The notes below the pieces were generated by a model that was given only the letters and a program-made list of their open reading frames with translations, was not told the DNA's origin and did no database searches. Source: Kribbella capetownensis (GTDB taxonomy: Bacteria > Actinomycetota > Actinomycetes > Propionibacteriales > Kribbellaceae). From it: a stretch of DNA of 64,000 bases. Location of the stretch: positions 248,001-312,000 of the forward strand of contig NZ_SJKD01000010.1 in the NCBI RefSeq assembly GCF_004331485.1, written 5' to 3'. The translations under genes were made by a program, and so were the position numbers. Shown piece after piece: positions 12,813-21,180 of this stretch (its first letter is position 1; each line of letters starts with the position of its first letter).

Positions 12813-14813
12813 TCAGGAGTCGGAGCGCACCTCATGCTCGACGCTCCCGTCGCCCACCCGAGAATAGGTTCGCTGGGCGCCGGACATGTCACCCGATCCA
12901 GGTGAAGCCGGTACGGATGTGGCGCGGTCGAAGTACAGGTAGGCGACGGCCGATCCGGCGAGTGGCATCGCGAGCGCGAAGAGCAGCGATGAGATCACGT
13001 TGATCAGGACCGGCGAAAGGTCGGTGGCGAGGAGCAGGACGATCCCGGCGATCGGTCCGGCGGCCAGTCCCAGCCCGATGATGATCGCGAGCGGTACGGC
13101 GGTCCGCCACCAACGCCGCTGGACGAGCATCCGGCTGCGTCTCAGCGCAGTACCTCCGGAGCAGTGCTCCGCCACCACGACCGGGATGGCGAACGCCCGG
13201 CTGGCCGCGTAGTAGATGGCCACCGGGATCGTCGCCACGAAGAACGCCAGGACCGCGAGTACGACGAAGTACTGCAGGGCCACCCGGGTCAGCGGCCGCC
13301 GGCGCGAGAAGACGTGGCGTAGTACTCCCATCGCGGTCACGGTCTCGCCACGATCCAACTGGTCGAGCATCCTCGTCACGGCCGCGAGAAGTACGACGTA
13401 CGCCGCGATCGTGAGGATCGTGACGGCCAACGTGATCAAGGAGGCCCAGAAGCCCGGAGCGTTCTCGGTCGGTGCGCCGAGGTCGGTGGGAGCGTCGCGT
13501 TGGGCGACCTGGAACCTGGCCAGAGTCACGGTCGCCAGGCTCAGCACGATGAACGCCGCCGCGAAGCCCGTGAACAGGCCAGGCCGGTGCCGGAACAAGC
13601 GCAGCGCGGCCACCACGGTCTGACCCCAAGCTCGCCTTCTTCTGGCCGGCAAAGGGGCAGCGTTGCTCCACCGCGTACGGCTCGCCGCGAACCAGATCAG
13701 CCCGACGAGCGCCGCGAGAATCAGGCCCAGCAGCCAGGCTCGATCGAGGGTTTCGCGGACCAAGTTGGATCCGGTGCCGACCGCGGCGCAGAACGCGCCC
13801 GTGCTGCTCGGACCAAGCAACGTGCCGGCCGGCACCGTACCGCTGTCGTCCCGCCAGGTCTCCTCGGCGTCCTGGATCGGCGTGAGCCACGACGTTTTCA
13901 TGTTCGGGCCGGTCGGCCCGTCGAAGAACGAGCGCTGCCGTTCGCCCCATCTGCCTTCGAATCCAAGCCAGGGATACTCCTGCAGGTAGTCCGCGCGGGT
14001 CAGCGGTACGTAGGCGACCCGGGGCCTGATCGCGGCTTGCGGTCTGGTCGTGTCGTCGCAGCCCAGTCCTTCCGAGCCACGACCGAGGTACAGGCGCTGG
14101 CCGTACTTGTTGGCATGTGAGCCGGCCGCCGGGTAGACGACCGGATGGGTTCCGTCGACGACCTCGAGTTTCGCGTCGCCCCAGCGGGCTCGCTCGGCGC
14201 CTCCGTGCTGGCTGAATCCGACCGCGGTCGGTTCCTTGGCCAGCGCGGCCGCGGGGGTCGGCGCGTCGAAGATGAGCTGGATCGATTCCCAGTCGCCTTC
14301 GTGGGTGTTGTTGTAGTCGTTGAAGACGTAGAAGAACCAGTACTCCAGCGAGAGCTTGCCGGGGAACGCCGGATCCGCGACGACATGGGCGTAGACGGTG
14401 GCCGGGTGGACCGCGTTGATCAGCGCCGACCACTCGGCGTACGTGCAGCCAGGACGGAGCGGATCGCCCGGGAAGTCGAGGAAGTGTCCATGGAACCCGA
14501 GGCTGATGTCCTTGCCCTGCGGCTGCGTCTTGACCAGGTCCGGAGGCCGCCATGGGCCGCGCAGGGCAACCTGTTGATCGCCGAGCACGGCCTCGACGTC
14601 GGTGGGCTGGAACTGTTCGCCGTCCTCGCACCTCGGCGATGGCTCCTGCAGTTTGACGACGGGGGAATAGCGCTGGGCCAGTGCTTGCGCGGCGGGGTCG
14701 TCTGGCGAGGCGGTGGTGTCGGCTGCTGCCGAGTCCGGCAGCCAGAGGATCGTCATGGTGAGGAAGGCGAACAGCAGTGGCGGCAGGGATCGTCTCCAGT
14801 CGCGGGCCGTCAT
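12813..14813 (-). CDS. Exported Vps62-like domain protein with C-terminal membrane region
   Basis: About 666 residues if started at the ATG at 14813, which gives a clean signal peptide (MTARDWRRSLPPLLFAFLTM then an AAAD cleavage zone); an upstream ATG at 14852 is possible. The exported part resembles Vps62-type domains: SLEYWFFYVFNDYNNTHEGD, WESIQLIFD, FSQHGGAERARW and VVYPAAGSHANKYG. From about residue 370 there are at least five hydrophobic helices with an intervening LDRGETVTAMGVLRHVFSRRRP loop, like the six-helix repeats of other actinobacterial membrane proteins. Function unknown. The HtrA gene follows within 20 bases. Confidence 0.8.
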   Translation of the reverse strand: MTARDWRRSLPPLLFAFLTMTILWLPDSAAADTTASPDDPAAQALAQRYSPVVKLQEPSPRCEDGEQFQPTDVEAVLGDQQVALRGPWRPPDLVKTQPQGKDISLGFHGHFLDFPGDPLRPGCTYAEWSALINAVHPATVYAHVVADPAFPGKLSLEYWFFYVFNDYNNTHEGDWESIQLIFDAPTPAAALAKEPTAVGFSQHGGAERARWGDAKLEVVDGTHPVVYPAAGSHANKYGQRLYLGRGSEGLGCDDTTRPQAAIRPRVAYVPLTRADYLQEYPWLGFEGRWGERQRSFFDGPTGPNMKTSWLTPIQDAEETWRDDSGTVPAGTLLGPSSTGAFCAAVGTGSNLVRETLDRAWLLGLILAALVGLIWFAASRTRWSNAAPLPARRRRAWGQTVVAALRLFRHRPGLFTGFAAAFIVLSLATVTLARFQVAQRDAPTDLGAPTENAPGFWASLITLAVTILTIAAYVVLLAAVTRMLDQLDRGETVTAMGVLRHVFSRRRPLTRVALQYFVVLAVLAFFVATIPVAIYYAASRAFAIPVVVAEHCSGGTALRRSRMLVQRRWWRTAVPLAIIIGLGLAAGPIAGIVLLLATDLSPVLINVISSLLFALAMPLAGSAVAYLYFDRATSVPASPGSGDMSGAQRTYSRVGDGSVEHEVRSDS
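12889..12905. repeat. 17-bp direct repeat TCACCCGATCCAGGTGA, copy 1
   Basis: Exact copy of the 17-mer at 14883-14899. It lies inside the 3' coding end of the Vps62-like gene. The outer five bases are inverted (TCACC/GGTGA), so it could be a protein-binding site. The core GGATCGGGTGA, read on the other strand, recurs on the plus strand at 4433-4443 at the end of the LuxR gene. Confidence 0.5.
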
Positions 14814-14882
14814 TTCCACAGCATGCGCACGACGTACCGGTCTCCACACCATCCGGCTCTGGCGTAACTTCGGCGGCCGAGG

Positions 14883-15060: not shown

Positions 15061-15303
15061 ATGGGCCATTACGTCATCAGGGTGAAGGGCGAACTGTCGC
15101 GCGACCTCACCGATGCCTTTCCCTCGATGACCGCCGATCCCGAACCGGCGCAGACGGTGCTGCACGGGTTCCTCGACGATCAGGCGGCACTGGCCGGCAT
15201 CCTCAACCACCTCGACATGCTCGGCATCAACATCATCGAGGTCCTGCAAGTCCCCTCGACCCGCCCACCCGACGACGACCCCTCACCCACGACCGCTCAG
15301 TGA
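15061..15303 (+). CDS. Small conserved protein of unknown function
   Basis: An 80-residue soluble protein. The ATG at 15061 follows GAAAGGGG. It reads as alpha/beta: HYVIRVKGEL, an acidic helix, TVLHGFLDDQAALAGILNHLDM, then GINIIEVLQV and a Pro/Asp-rich tail. The fold hint (beta-helix-helix-beta) is reminiscent of a half ACT-like domain, but this is weak. It overlaps the convergent VOC gene by seven bases. Confidence 0.65.
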   Translation: MGHYVIRVKGELSRDLTDAFPSMTADPEPAQTVLHGFLDDQAALAGILNHLDMLGINIIEVLQVPSTRPPDDDPSPTTAQ

Positions 15304-15695
15304 TTACTCCAGCCCCGGGTACACAGGACCAGGCGGTAGGAGTCCGGATCCGCGATGGTGACGCCCCAGGTATCCCAGTACGGGTTGCGCGACGGAACCA
15401 CCTGCCCGCCGGCGGCGACCAGACGTTCGACCAGCTCGTCCGGCACCGGCCCCTCCAGGTAGACGACCAGGAGGTCTTCCTCGGTCGGCTGCGGTTGCAC
15501 CGGATCGCCGTCGATCTGCACCAGTTCGAGGTGCCAGCCCGCCTCGGGCCAACCGACCATCAGGAGGTGGTGGCCGTCCTCGGACTTCCGGTAGATCACA
15601 CTCAGCCCGAGACCGTCGACCCAGAACCGCTCGACGGCGGTCAGATCCTTGCTGGGACGGGCTATCCGCACGTGGGCCTGCTGTTCGATCGCCAT
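15297..15695 (-). CDS. VOC-family (glyoxalase/bleomycin resistance-like) protein
   Basis: A 132-residue metal-fold protein with two beta-alpha-beta-beta-beta halves. The first opens HVRIARPSKDLTAVERFWVD with LGLSVIYR; the second contains LVVYLEGPVPDELVERLVAA and ends WGVTIADPDSYRLVLCTR. This is the vicinal oxygen chelate family, which includes lyases, dioxygenases and drug-binding proteins; the exact reaction cannot be read. Start ATG at 15695. Tail-to-tail with the 80-residue gene. Confidence 0.85.
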   Translation of the reverse strand: MAIEQQAHVRIARPSKDLTAVERFWVDGLGLSVIYRKSEDGHHLLMVGWPEAGWHLELVQIDGDPVQPQPTEEDLLVVYLEGPVPDELVERLVAAGGQVVPSRNPYWDTWGVTIADPDSYRLVLCTRGWSNH

Positions 15696-15815: not shown

Positions 15816-15837
15816 TGACTGACTGATCAGTCAGTCA
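15816..15837. promoter_or_regulatory. Perfect 22-bp palindrome, probable TetR operator
   Basis: Each half reads TGACTGACTGA on its own strand, giving a perfect dyad with no mismatch. It lies 63-84 bases upstream of the ATG of the di-iron gene that is coupled to a TetR gene. Repeated TGAC/GTCA elements are typical of TetR operators. I infer autoregulation of this two-gene unit. Confidence 0.75.
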
Positions 15838-15899
15838 TCTTGCTAGGCTCGGCAGTGCTGCACTTGGGGCATTCCTGTCGATGGAGTGAGGTGCCGACC

Positions 15900-16826
15900 A
15901 TGGCGCTTGCGGATGTGTCTGTGTCTCGCCGGAGAAAGGCCCGGCGAGAGGAGTCGAGGCTGGCCGACCATGTCGACCGGCTGGGGGAGGAACACCCACC
16001 GATCCCGCTCGACAGTGTCGACTACACGATGAAGCGGCCCGGCCTGCTCGCCGAGCGGTTCGGGTCGGTCCTGGCCTACATGTCGCGGGTCGAGCTCGAG
16101 GTCGAACGGAACGTGATCGAGCTGAACATCCTGCTGCCTGATCCACCCGAGGTCGATCAGCACTTCTACGCCGACGTGTGGATGCCGCAGGAGACGCACC
16201 ACGGCCTGATCCTCGACCGGCTCCAGGTCCTGGCCGGTCTCGAGGCCACCACCCCCAACCTCACCGAGGTGTCGTTCCGGCTCAAGCTGCTCGGGGCGCT
16301 CGGCCGGGTGGGCGCCGTACAGGACGTCAGCCGGATGCTCTACTACCTGACCGGGCTGGCCACCGAGCGATCGGCGGTGCTTGCCTACAACAAGCTTCAC
16401 GCCGGCATGCTCGAGCTGGGGGAGCGGGCCGTCGCGAGGACCGTGGTCGCGCCGATCCGCCGCCAGGAGCCGGGGCACTTCGCCTACTACCAGATCGCCG
16501 CGCGTGGTCTCTGGTCGCAGTTGGGCGGCTGGCAGAAGTGGCTGGTGCGCACGCTGCGGCGGAAGACGTTCGGCCCGGTCGGTGCCGAGAACAAGCAGCA
16601 GCGGCTGGAGTTCGGCAAGGCGATCCGCTCGCTGGGCATCGTCACCGGTGACGACGCGGATCTTCAGCACTATGCCGATCAGGTCGGGCGGGTCGAGCAC
16701 GAGTTGCTCTGGGCCCACCGGCGCGGTCTGCGGGTCCCGAAGTACGTGTTCGAGTCGTTCCGCCGTGCCGCCCACGCGACCGCGGACCTGGACGGTGATC
16801 ACCAGCCCGCCCGGGGTCGGGCCTGA
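15900..16826 (+). CDS. Ferritin-like di-iron protein (oxygenase/desaturase-like), unknown substrate
   Basis: A 308-residue helical protein starting at ATG 15900 behind GGAGTGAGGTG. It shows the spacing of a di-iron carboxylate four-helix bundle: Glu in VELEVERN (about residues 65-69), E98-T-H-H101, E156 in ATERSAVL, and E190-P-G-H193. Those two ExxH elements plus single glutamates resemble acyl-ACP desaturase and AurF-like enzymes. No membrane span is evident, and it is not a normal ferritin. It sits behind a TetR-type palindrome and its stop overlaps the TetR start (TGATG). A stress-induced oxygenase acting on a lipid or xenobiotic is a reasonable inference, not shown. Confidence 0.75.
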   Translation: MALADVSVSRRRKARREESRLADHVDRLGEEHPPIPLDSVDYTMKRPGLLAERFGSVLAYMSRVELEVERNVIELNILLPDPPEVDQHFYADVWMPQETHHGLILDRLQVLAGLEATTPNLTEVSFRLKLLGALGRVGAVQDVSRMLYYLTGLATERSAVLAYNKLHAGMLELGERAVARTVVAPIRRQEPGHFAYYQIAARGLWSQLGGWQKWLVRTLRRKTFGPVGAENKQQRLEFGKAIRSLGIVTGDDADLQHYADQVGRVEHELLWAHRRGLRVPKYVFESFRRAAHATADLDGDHQPARGRA

Positions 16827-17410
16827 TGATGACCGCCGCCGCCTCCGGCCGCCCCTCGAAACGTGAAGCCATCATCGACACGGCCGAGCGCCTGTTCGCC
16901 GACCGCGGGTACGACGCGACGTCGACAGCGCTGATCGCGCACGAGGCCGGCGTACCGACCGGCCTGGTGTTCTACCACTTCGCGACCAAGCTGGATCTCC
17001 TGCTGGCCATCGTGCACGAGCGGCCGACACCGGGTGAGGTGCTGCGGACCGCAGCACGTGGGCGGTCGGTGCACCGCCGGTTGCGGGCCGTCGTGTCGTC
17101 GATGGCCGAGGAACTGGAACGCAATCGGGCGGCGCGGATCATCGTCTTCCGGGAGGCGCAGGCCCGTCCCGAGATCGCCGAGCGGGCGGCGGAGTTGTTC
17201 GACGAAGCCACCACCACGGTCGCGGAGATCCTCAGCGGCGCCGACGATGTGGTGGCCGAACCGGACCGGGTCCGGACGGCCGCGGATCTCATCGTCAGCC
17301 GCGTCTTCCTCGACATCATCGCGTTGGGCCAGGCCGACACCGCAACCAAACGCCACGCCGCCATGATCGACCTCATCGAAGAGTCACTCACCACACCACA
17401 CGCCGAGTGA
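16826..17410 (+). CDS. TetR-family transcriptional regulator
   Basis: A 194-residue repressor. The N-terminal helix-turn-helix covers about residues 10-58 (REAIIDTAERLFADRGYDAT ... VFYHFATKLDLL), the classic TetR pattern with the YHF recognition end. The C-terminal helical domain should bind the ligand. ATG 16826 overlaps the stop of the di-iron gene by one base. It most likely binds the 22-bp palindrome at 15816-15837 and represses its own operon until a ligand, possibly the di-iron enzyme's substrate, appears. Confidence 0.92.
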   Translation: MMTAAASGRPSKREAIIDTAERLFADRGYDATSTALIAHEAGVPTGLVFYHFATKLDLLLAIVHERPTPGEVLRTAARGRSVHRRLRAVVSSMAEELERNRAARIIVFREAQARPEIAERAAELFDEATTTVAEILSGADDVVAEPDRVRTAADLIVSRVFLDIIALGQADTATKRHAAMIDLIEESLTTPHAE

Positions 17411-17976: not shown

Positions 17977-18678
17977 CTACGGGAGTTTGCGGGTGTCGAT
18001 GAGTTGCTGAGCGACGTCGCGGAGTTTGGTGTTGGTGTCCTGGGAGTAGCGCTTGAGGATGGCGAAGGCCCGGTCGCCGTCGACGTCGAAGCGTTCCATC
18101 AGGATGCCCATCGCCTGGCCGACGAGTTTGCGGGCGTCGACGGCCTGCGCCATCGATTCCTCGTGCCGCGCGGAGGCGAGAGCAACGGATGCGTGCCGGG
18201 CGAGGATGTGGGCGATCGCCTCGTCGTCCTCCGTGAACGCATCCGGGAACGGGCTGTAGAGCCCGAGTACGCCGACCGTCGCACGAGCCGCACCACCAGT
18301 CGCCAGCGGTACGTCGAGCACGCTGCGCACCCCGAGAGCGGCAACCTTCGCGGCCCACTCCGGCCAGCGGTCGTCGGTTGTGGTGTCACGGATCAGGACG
18401 GTGGTGCGTTCACGGAGCGCGGTCACCAGCGGGCCACACTCGGAGGTGAGTTGCAGGTCGTACACGTCCGCGACGACCGGGTCGGTGACCGCGGCGATCT
18501 CCGGGTGTGATCCACGGGAATAGAGCGCCACGCCGGCGTACGTGCAGTTGAGGGCCTGCAGGGCGAACTGGACGACGGCGTCGACCGTCTCGTCCACGCC
18601 CGACGCGTCGTGCAACTCGACCGCCAGGCGGGCGAAGGCCATCGCCGCGTCGTTGGCGTCCGAGTCGATCATGGCCAC
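17977..18678 (-). CDS. GAF and ANTAR domain signalling protein
   Basis: A 233-residue soluble sensor/RNA-binding regulator. The GAF domain is about residues 20-165 (TVDAVVQFALQALNCTYAGV ... VRSVLDVPLA). The ANTAR domain is the last 60 residues, with the characteristic ARKLVGQAMGILMERFDVDG and AFAILKRYSQDTNTKLRDVA. ANTAR proteins bind paired stem-loops in mRNA and act as antiterminators. GTG 18678 follows AGGAG with six bases between; an ATG two codons inside is an alternative. No clear ANTAR target hairpins were found nearby. Confidence 0.9.
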   Translation of the reverse strand: MAMIDSDANDAAMAFARLAVELHDASGVDETVDAVVQFALQALNCTYAGVALYSRGSHPEIAAVTDPVVADVYDLQLTSECGPLVTALRERTTVLIRDTTTDDRWPEWAAKVAALGVRSVLDVPLATGGAARATVGVLGLYSPFPDAFTEDDEAIAHILARHASVALASARHEESMAQAVDARKLVGQAMGILMERFDVDGDRAFAILKRYSQDTNTKLRDVAQQLIDTRKLP

Positions 18679-19386: not shown

Positions 19387-20334
19387 ATGGAGTCCCTGAC
19401 ATTCGAGAGTCGCGATCTGGCGCGCACCGAGGAGTTCCTCAACCGCGCGTACACCAAGATGCGGATCGGCGGCGGCACGGACGACGTGAGCGCGCGGATC
19501 ACCCGCGAGGCGGTGGGCTCGATCAGTATCGACCGGCTCGACATCGGCTTCGAGATGAAGTACGACGCCGACCCGCTCGGCAAGATCTGTCTCTGCGTGG
19601 TCGAGGCCGGAACCGTGCAGGACCACGCCACCGACGGCTGGCAGGACGCGTTCGGTCCGGGCGATGTCGTCTCGTTCGCCCCGCCGGATCGTCCGTACGC
19701 CGGCAAGGTCTGCCGGTCGCGCTACAGCATCACCATGTTCGATCCCGCGCTGCTCACCCGGGCCGCAGGCGTTGACAACCGAACCGGTGGGCCGGTCCGG
19801 CTGCTCGACCATCGCCCACACTCGGCCGCGGCCGCCCGCCATCTGGTCAGCACGATCAACTATCTGGGCGATCAGGTGCTGCCGGACTCGACGGTACGGA
19901 CGTCGACGCTGCTGCAGTCCTCGGTCTCGCGCCTGCTCGCGTCGAGTGTCCTGGCCGCGTTCCCGAACACGGCGCTGATCGCGCAGGACCGTGCCGACGG
20001 GCGGGACGCGCATCCGCGGACAGTGCAGCGGGCGATCGCCTTTCTGGAGTCCAGCGTCGACCAGGACGTCGCTGTCGGCGACGTTGCCGCCGCCGCCGGC
20101 GTGACTGTGCGGGCGGTTCAGACCGCCTTCCAGCGGCATCTCGGAACCACCCCGATGGCGTACCTGCGCCAGTTGCGCCTGGCCGAGGTCTGCACCGAAC
20201 TCCTGGTAGGCGATCCGGCCAAGCTCTCCGTCACAGCCGTGGCGGCGCGCTGGGGTTTCCACCACCTGGGTCGCTTCGCCGCCGCCTACCGGGAGCGGTA
20301 CGGCGAGTTGCCGAGCACAACGCTGGGTCGCTGA
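19387..20334 (+). CDS. AraC-family transcriptional regulator
   Basis: A 315-residue regulator. The N-terminal two-thirds is an AraC-binding type sensor domain (start MESLTFESRDLARTEEFLNR, later FGPGDVVSFAPPDRPYAG). The C-terminal 100 residues form two helix-turn-helix units: VAVGDVAAAAGVTVRAVQTA then a second with VTAVAARWGFHHLGRFAAAY and the end YRERYGELPSTTL. Family members are usually activators of catabolic or stress genes. It is convergent with the second GAF-ANTAR gene, so its target is not obvious. Confidence 0.92.
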   Translation: MESLTFESRDLARTEEFLNRAYTKMRIGGGTDDVSARITREAVGSISIDRLDIGFEMKYDADPLGKICLCVVEAGTVQDHATDGWQDAFGPGDVVSFAPPDRPYAGKVCRSRYSITMFDPALLTRAAGVDNRTGGPVRLLDHRPHSAAAARHLVSTINYLGDQVLPDSTVRTSTLLQSSVSRLLASSVLAAFPNTALIAQDRADGRDAHPRTVQRAIAFLESSVDQDVAVGDVAAAAGVTVRAVQTAFQRHLGTTPMAYLRQLRLAEVCTELLVGDPAKLSVTAVAARWGFHHLGRFAAAYRERYGELPSTTLGR

Positions 20335-20359: not shown

Positions 20360-21040
20360 TCAGCCGTCGAGTTGCAGCCGGCGACTGACGATGAGCTGGG
20401 CCACCCGCGCCAGCGTCTCGTCGCGGGCGTAGGCGCGGGCGCGGAGAAGCGCCGAGGCATCGTCGATCGCCAGGCCCAGATGGCCGGCGATCATGCCGGT
20501 CGCCTGATGGACCACAGCCCGCGACATCCACGGGCTGTGGTCGTCGGGTTCGTCGCCGGTGGGTGGTGGATCGTTGAGCAGCGCGACACCGAGTGCGTCG
20601 GCGAGGAACTGCGAGGTCTGCGGACTCTCCGTGAACTTCCGGCCGTCGGTGACGTACGCGCTGAGCACGCCGAACGGGCGTCCACCCGGACGGATCGGGA
20701 AGCAGCGGATGGTCAGCGGTCCGACCGCGGCCAGCGCCGAGCGGACGAACTCCGGCCAGCGCCTGTCGGTCTCCAGGTGCGCCGCGACCGGCTCGCCCGC
20801 GCCGTACGCCGCATGGCCCGGCCCCTCACCGAGGACGTCCTGCAGATCCTCGAGCCGCGCGGCCGTCGAGTCGGTGGCGGTCAGCGTGACGCGGTTGGTG
20901 ACCGAGTTCTCGATCGTGATCGCCGTACCGTCCGCACCGAGGAGGTCACGACAGGTGCGCCCCAGCTCGTCGGGGCGACTGCGCGCGGGCGTCGCTGTGA
21001 TCGCCTCGATCAATCGGGTGAGGATCGCACCGCGCTTCAT
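20360..21040 (-). CDS. GAF and ANTAR domain signalling protein (second)
   Basis: 226 residues from the ATG at 21040 (MKRGAILTRLIEAI); an upstream start at 21130 would only add a low-complexity arginine-rich leader. A GAF-like domain fills about residues 20-150 (GADGTAITIENSVTNRVTLT ... IRCFPIRPGGRPFGVLSAYV). A C-terminal ANTAR helix bundle includes VVHQATGMIAGHLGLAIDDA and ALLRARAYARDETLARVAQL. Role as for other ANTAR proteins: RNA binding and antitermination in response to a signal. It is only distantly similar to the one at 17977-18678. Confidence 0.87.
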   Translation of the reverse strand: MKRGAILTRLIEAITATPARSRPDELGRTCRDLLGADGTAITIENSVTNRVTLTATDSTAARLEDLQDVLGEGPGHAAYGAGEPVAAHLETDRRWPEFVRSALAAVGPLTIRCFPIRPGGRPFGVLSAYVTDGRKFTESPQTSQFLADALGVALLNDPPPTGDEPDDHSPWMSRAVVHQATGMIAGHLGLAIDDASALLRARAYARDETLARVAQLIVSRRLQLDG

Positions 21041-21180
21041 GTCAGGCCCGGTACCCGCCCGGCCGCCGGCCATTCCCGCTCGAGATCGCCCGTTTGTGCG
21101 GCGTTGGGGGCGGGCACCGGATGAAGGCACGGGGAGTTCAGTCGCCGGGTGTCCGCCCGGCTCGTCAGATGGGAAGGGCC

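Follow-up and report, generated by a model that had tools for sequence, protein, structure and literature searches.

What do a perfect palindrome, an enzyme gene with no named family and an adjoining TetR-type regulator gene do together, and on what compound does the enzyme act? This question is raised by a locus in a stretch of 64,000 nucleotides from the soil bacterium Kribbella capetownensis (the window), which sits on contig 1 of an 8.83-Mb draft genome. Our analysis points to a simple unit of one operator, one regulator and one enzyme, whose probable role is to sense a fatty or oily compound and to oxidise it.

Gene pair, operator and their distribution in Kribbella

The first gene (15900-16826, forward strand; ATG at 15900, stop codon at 16824-16826) encodes a 308-amino-acid di-iron protein resembling acyl-ACP desaturases, and the second (16826-17410, forward strand; ATG at 16826) encodes a 194-amino-acid TetR family regulator. 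A preliminary description of this DNA reported that the genes overlap by one base, and indeed the enzyme stop codon and the TetR start codon share base 16826 (TGATG). Comparison of this junction in 20 Kribbella loci revealed a four-base ATGA overlap in 15, a one-base overlap in two (one being the window locus) and a 10-base gap in three, i.e. overlapping start and stop codons in 17 of the 20. The ATGA and TGATG overlaps suggest, at the level of sequence, translational coupling of the two genes. Two papers (PMC3511530, PMC4482099) take a gap of 35 bp or less as a sign that a TetR gene is co-transcribed with its neighbours. Searches of the open-licence literature gave no paper on the enzyme-TetR pair among the matches listed and no paper related to the operator sequence.

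Analysis of the regulator identified the TetR_N domain (PF00440) at an E-value of 2.6e-16 (59.6 bits, cut-off 24), while the best C-terminal Pfam models stayed under their cut-offs. The predicted structure (pLDDT 86.7) has the all-helical TetR fold, with Z-scores of up to 17.6. Because the scores of EthR, PfmR, DesT, FasR and FadR span no more than about 2 Z units (15.6-17.4), the effector class is not settled by the fold, and the fold search favoured no single class. Sequence relatives of the regulator with known structures include FasR (6o6p, 2e-9).

The predicted TetR operator, TGACTGACTGATCAGTCAGTCA, occupies positions 15816-15837 (no strand assigned) and reads TGAC, TGAC and TGA, mirrored by TCA, GTCA and GTCA. 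It had been called flawless, and its symmetry is perfect at 11 of 11 pairs. At 22 bp it exceeds every other perfect palindrome in the window, the runners-up measuring 16 bp. As 0.067 perfect palindromes of 22 bp are expected per window from base composition, the palindrome alone is only moderately unlikely. The 16-bp perfect palindrome at 16639-16654, inside the enzyme gene, belongs to a length class (16 bp or more) of which about 2.9 are expected per window. The operator sequence had no match at three or fewer mismatches in 100 shuffles, and at the same threshold no second copy was found in the window or in the genome. The reversed control of the genome scan gave one match per strand, each being the same site two bases out of register, because TGAC repeats within the operator. 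A larger TetR regulon was considered and rejected, since there is only one site in the genome.

What composition alone cannot settle is settled by conservation across Kribbella loci, which indicates that the operator is real. Among 20 aligned Kribbella upstream regions the mean column conservation was 0.98 for the operator versus 0.64 for the other upstream columns. Of 21 Kribbella loci, 20 have a perfect 18-bp core, whereas only six are symmetric over all 22 bp; the ends carry TTA instead of TCA in 13 of the 21, TTG in one and GTA in one. What is conserved is therefore, in essence, the 20-bp TGACTGACTGATCAGTCAGT, and perfect outermost pairs can be dispensed with. The operator centre lies 68-81 bp 5' of the enzyme start in all 20 loci measured (73 bp in the window). 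Repeat loci of a genome (L018, L020, L021, L027, L028, L033 and L035) were left out of these counts of 20 and 21 loci, and an operator-only locus (L037) was dropped from the locus sets searched by tblastn.

A putative -10-like element, GCTAGGCT (15842-15849, forward strand), was picked out visually in the alignment directly 3' of the operator, and a TTGYTAGGCT-like stretch occurs a few bases 3' of the operator in many orthologues, again by eye. Scans of the locus for sigma-70 consensus promoters and for terminators called nothing, the -10-like element included. If the TTGYTAGGCT-like stretch is a -10 region, the operator would cover the -35 region and TetR would repress. Preceding the -10-like element by a few bases, the operator would thus be placed for a steric repressor.

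A total of 38 genomes of the genus Kribbella were used for the analysis of distribution. The 20-bp operator, allowing one mismatch, was found once each in 21 of these genomes (reversed control, 0), and a TetR orthologue (E-value of 1e-25 or lower) was found once each in the same 21. The operator is hence present in every one of the 21 genomes that have the TetR gene and in none of the 17 that lack it; the TetR search scored 86 of the 90 to 168 initial candidates in each genome, so that a very weak orthologue could be missed. In the twenty-first genome (G343) the operator (182689), the enzyme gene (182782) and the TetR gene (183675) are consecutive on one contig. The shared distribution and the conserved operator columns bear out the earlier proposal that the operator is a real element tied to the adjoining TetR gene.

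In a tree of 60 enzyme rows one branch (support 99/94) separates all 21 TetR-linked rows from the rest. This topology is consistent with operator and TetR gene having been gained jointly and once, so the co-occurrences in 21 genomes amount to one evolutionary event, and the idea of 21 independent co-occurrences was rejected. Some TetR-bearing genomes possess a second enzyme copy, about 48% identical, without a TetR gene. The nearest named relative of the window enzyme comes from Kribbella pittospori (98% identical).

Family, ligand residues and fold of the enzyme

No obvious family had been assigned to the enzyme, and four libraries agree with that observation: Pfam and NCBIfam gave no match at E-values up to 10, and PHROGs and PADLOC none at E-values up to 0.01. 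A match to models of known defence systems was rejected on the PADLOC result. A sequence search of the PDB and a tblastn search against plasmids also gave no match for the enzyme. The curated model of acyl-ACP desaturases, PF03405 (FA_desaturase_2), left the window enzyme unmatched at E-values up to 10 and matched two of 30 aligned members of its family (best E-value 0.0022); the AurF model, PF11583, left it unmatched as well and matched two of the 30 (best E-value 0.035). The protein points to an unannotated di-iron family missed by the four libraries searched. In a sample of 118 genomes of the class, 63 encode a PF03405 protein that scores over the cut-off. Since the window genome has no PF03405 desaturase of its own, Kribbella might make oxidised or unsaturated lipids through this enzyme, by a route not recognised so far.

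Two ExxH motifs and further glutamates had been noted in the protein, and both were recovered, as E98xxH101 and E190xxH193 together with E65 and E156. All six residues are among the invariant positions in a 30-row alignment of the enzyme family. In a 60-row alignment, which represents 56 distinct sequences, none of these putative iron ligands varies in any of the 56, even in relatives of about 24% identity. Glutamine at position 189 is likewise found in 56 of 56, and alanine at position 159 in 49, with threonine in the remaining seven.

Analysis of the AlphaFold model of the enzyme (pLDDT 89.5, pTM 0.87) placed the six putative ligands on four separate long helices. Foldseek ranked plant acyl-ACP desaturases first to eighth, all with probability 1.00, at E-values of 0.0044 to 0.014, rmsd of 9-15 Å and TM-scores of 0.36-0.54 by query; no match reached an E-value of 0.001. 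VIA-align also ranked plant desaturases first to ninth (Z 17.2-18.1, 253-266 residues), the best match having Z 18.1 and 3.6 Å over 255 residues, and the desaturase fold spans nearly the whole enzyme chain. As judged from the model, the ferritin-like di-iron fold proposed in the preliminary description is supported, and the closest structure is an acyl-ACP desaturase, as it had suggested. The other comparison suggested there, AurF, fits less well: AurF and CmlI are ferritin-like di-iron proteins, but among the matches listed their Foldseek E-values were 0.22 or worse and their probabilities at most 0.72 (3chu 0.44, 3chh 0.72, 5hyh 0.47). An AurF-type N-oxygenase as best fit was rejected on these scores, which are weaker than those of the desaturases. 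AurF was absent from the best 50 VIA-align matches listed, an absence not counted as exclusion.

Comparison of sequence profiles (without L095, read in a wrong frame, and L106, which gave no ORF) connected the enzyme to the desaturases by way of an unnamed intermediate actinobacterial family (L047, L048 and the L068-L087 type). The enzyme family matched the intermediate family at an E-value of 8e-12, and the intermediate family matched the bacterial PF03405 set at 1.4e-4 (hhalign probability 52%; reversed control 0.044). The merged profile matched the PF03405 set at 0.0029 (reversed control 0.03), and the direct comparison of enzyme family and PF03405 set was not significant (E-value 0.061; reversed control 0.18). 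The intermediate family has the same six ligands as the enzyme but is only 23-24% identical to it and has a shorter C-terminus. One of its members, L086, scores 21.9 with FA_desaturase_2, just under the cut-off of 22.7. A further member is encoded by the window genome itself (L116:6073-6657, contig 28 of G000); as called, it starts at the MW...E..H motif, without the N-terminal part that holds the first glutamate, and its FA_desaturase_2 score is under the cut-off.

Likeness to the acyl-ACP desaturases, such as those of castor (stearoyl-ACP desaturase, 1afr) and Thunbergia (7pp7), extends over the fold of the whole chain. The spacing of ligands is E65-33-E98xxH101-55-E156-34-E190xxH193 in the window enzyme and, for the desaturases, E76-31-E107xxH110-57-E167-30-E197xxH200 in L088. 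The WxxxExxHG and ExxH motifs align with those of 7pp7, and the 7pp7 alignment, at an hmmsearch E-value of 0.78, pairs five of the six ligands (E98, H101, E156, E190 and H193) with desaturase E/H positions. In contrast, identity to the plant enzymes is about 12-14% in structural alignments, the aspartic acid that precedes the second ExxH in the desaturases is replaced by Q189, and 7pp7 has threonine where the window enzyme has A159. This aspartic acid and threonine matter in plant desaturases. Overall, the best reading of the model is that the enzyme is a distant relative of acyl-ACP desaturases, a soluble ferritin-like di-iron protein.

Neighbourhoods of relatives and proposed function

A total of 35 distinct loci with enzyme relatives from the Nocardioides genus group, which includes named Nocardioides species, were used for the comparison of neighbourhoods (L109 repeats L012 and is counted once; L113, L114 and L115, family f43, are outside the 35). 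An alkB-like gene, found with a query that carries a rubredoxin domain, lies downstream of the enzyme relative in 18 of the 35 loci, with 2.8 to 5.1 kb between the aligned enzyme start and the start of the alkB-like gene. It is accompanied by an AlkX-like TetR gene in 18 of 18 loci and by a detectable ferredoxin in 10. The alkB cluster is convergent with the enzyme relative in 17 of the 18 and there does not form one operon with it; L164 has the same orientation. An MFS gene divergent from the enzyme relative, with aligned starts within 237 bp, was found in 19 of the 35 loci. Domains of neighbours were checked on examples, namely alkB and ferredoxin of L011 and TetR_C_35 and MFS of L038 (MFS_1 at 5.7e-54). 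No palindrome common to the MFS/enzyme gap and the region upstream of alkB was found in this genus group. In several of its loci (L108, L111, L152-L160 and others) a TAGGAT-like element was seen by eye about 6-10 bases before the enzyme start, and a divergent promoter may give leaderless transcripts there.

In Kribbella, none of the 21 TetR-linked loci has an alkB-like, AlkX-like, ferredoxin, MFS or flavin monooxygenase gene in its flanks (about 1.5 to 5 kb). Among the 17 distinct TetR-less Kribbella copies (L184 repeats L010 in the neighbourhood set and the tree), a flavin monooxygenase gene adjoins three (L008, L057 and L178; Pfam for L057) and not the other 14, and alkB is near none. The distant relatives L047-L049 have a similar MFS gene (33-34% identical) nearby, and L047 and L048 a TetR-like gene; L049 gave no tblastn match in one locus search and a weak match in an earlier one. 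The annotated region around a plasmid-borne Streptomyces relative of the intermediate family contained no features.

The gene pair resembles AlkB-rubredoxin-AlkX/AlkU operons in that a TetR regulator would control an O2-dependent di-iron enzyme. It differs from them in that the window TetR has no TetR_C_35 match at E-values up to 0.05, such as is present in the neighbour of L038, and in that no alkB-like gene is near the Kribbella pair. AlkB is, moreover, a membrane enzyme of another fold. In the presence of palmitate, AlkX of mycobacteria no longer binds DNA (PMC9430723), and AlkU of Rhodococcus acts as a repressor (PMC6921075). Through the neighbourhood of the Nocardioides-group cousins only, the substrate is narrowed towards hydrocarbon or acyl-lipid chemistry. 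A second likeness concerns the operator sequence and not homology of the regulators: the consensus of Thermus SbtR (TTHA0167; PMC7022988), TGACYrnnyRGTCA, fits the central 14 bases, TGACTGATCAGTCA, exactly. Sites of the Thermus TetR regulator TTHB023 are reported to map to promoters of fatty-acid biosynthesis. Unlike the SbtR and TTHB023 operators, the Kribbella site carries an additional TGAC or GTCA on each side, which brings it to 20-22 bp.

We favour, with somewhat better than even confidence, an autoregulated two-gene operon in which TetR is the repressor and the di-iron enzyme acts on an acyl or hydrocarbon-like substrate by oxidation or desaturation. A TetR dimer would bind the 22-bp palindrome beside the -10-like element, possibly as two dimers on one operator because each half-site repeats TGAC, and the bound regulator would block transcription of both genes, its own included. 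A small lipophilic effector would free TetR from the operator; the likeliest candidate is an acyl compound or hydrocarbon that the enzyme takes as substrate or releases as product. The first gene, once derepressed, would yield a soluble di-iron enzyme by which the compound is desaturated or hydroxylated with O2 and two electrons.

The main rival is that the enzyme serves detoxification or resistance by oxidising an antibiotic, solvent or other xenobiotic sensed by TetR, as in many pairs of TetR and drug resistance. The MFS neighbours of the cousins favour it, namely the divergent MFS genes in 19 of 35 Nocardioides-group loci and the MFS gene near L047-L049, with the TetR-like gene near two of these. 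It would also agree with the flavin monooxygenase gene beside three TetR-less Kribbella copies and with a TetR model as close to the ethionamide regulator EthR as to the fatty-acid regulators. Such an exporter is, however, in the flanks of none of the 21 TetR-linked Kribbella loci, and the structurally closest family works on acyl-ACP; we regard this reading as rather unlikely.

Considerably less probable is a ferritin-like protein without organic substrate, such as an R2-like protein, a sensor of metals or a scavenger of peroxide, in which case TetR would respond to the redox or metal state. Ribonucleotide reductase R2 and R2-like oxidases have a ligand order similar to that of the enzyme. 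They form the next VIA-align rows after the plant desaturases among the matches listed (Z 13.8-14.9), and DesA2 (1za0), the sole bacterial acyl-ACP desaturase among those matches, scores no higher than R2, at Z 14.5. Nevertheless, the plant desaturases lie about 3 Z units higher and match almost the whole chain, and by the caution of VIA-align itself helical bundles can reach Z of about 13 without meaning. Lastly, a palindrome that arose by chance or is unrelated to the pair (e.g. the site of another regulator), with TetR acting elsewhere, would draw on the 0.067 expected per window but is strongly disfavoured and hardly credible, given a site unique in its genome that accompanies the TetR gene in 21 of 21 genomes and is missing from all 17 others.

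Beyond the autoregulated operon, we put forward only tentatively that the unnamed soluble di-iron family is a cytosolic partner of membrane alkane hydroxylation, acting on hydrocarbon chains or acyl carriers, and that one Kribbella lineage captured a TetR gene and operator to form a stand-alone lipid or alkane sensor-effector unit. With the effector in hand, the operator, single-copy and nearly invariant, would serve as a clean part for a biosensor.

Analysis of the genes around the pair in the window gave three further observations. An open reading frame of 679 amino acids (12813-14852, minus strand) has no Pfam match at E-values up to 1e-5. A YycE-like protein of the glyoxalase fold (15297-15695, minus strand) is encoded divergently from the enzyme gene; it seems not to be a conserved partner, since tblastn of the locus flanks (about 1.5 to 4 kb) found it only in the window locus (L017). 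On the other side, near the operon, two ANTAR-domain proteins (17977-18678 and 20360-21130, minus strand), one of them a GAF-ANTAR protein, flank an AraC-type regulator (19387-20334).
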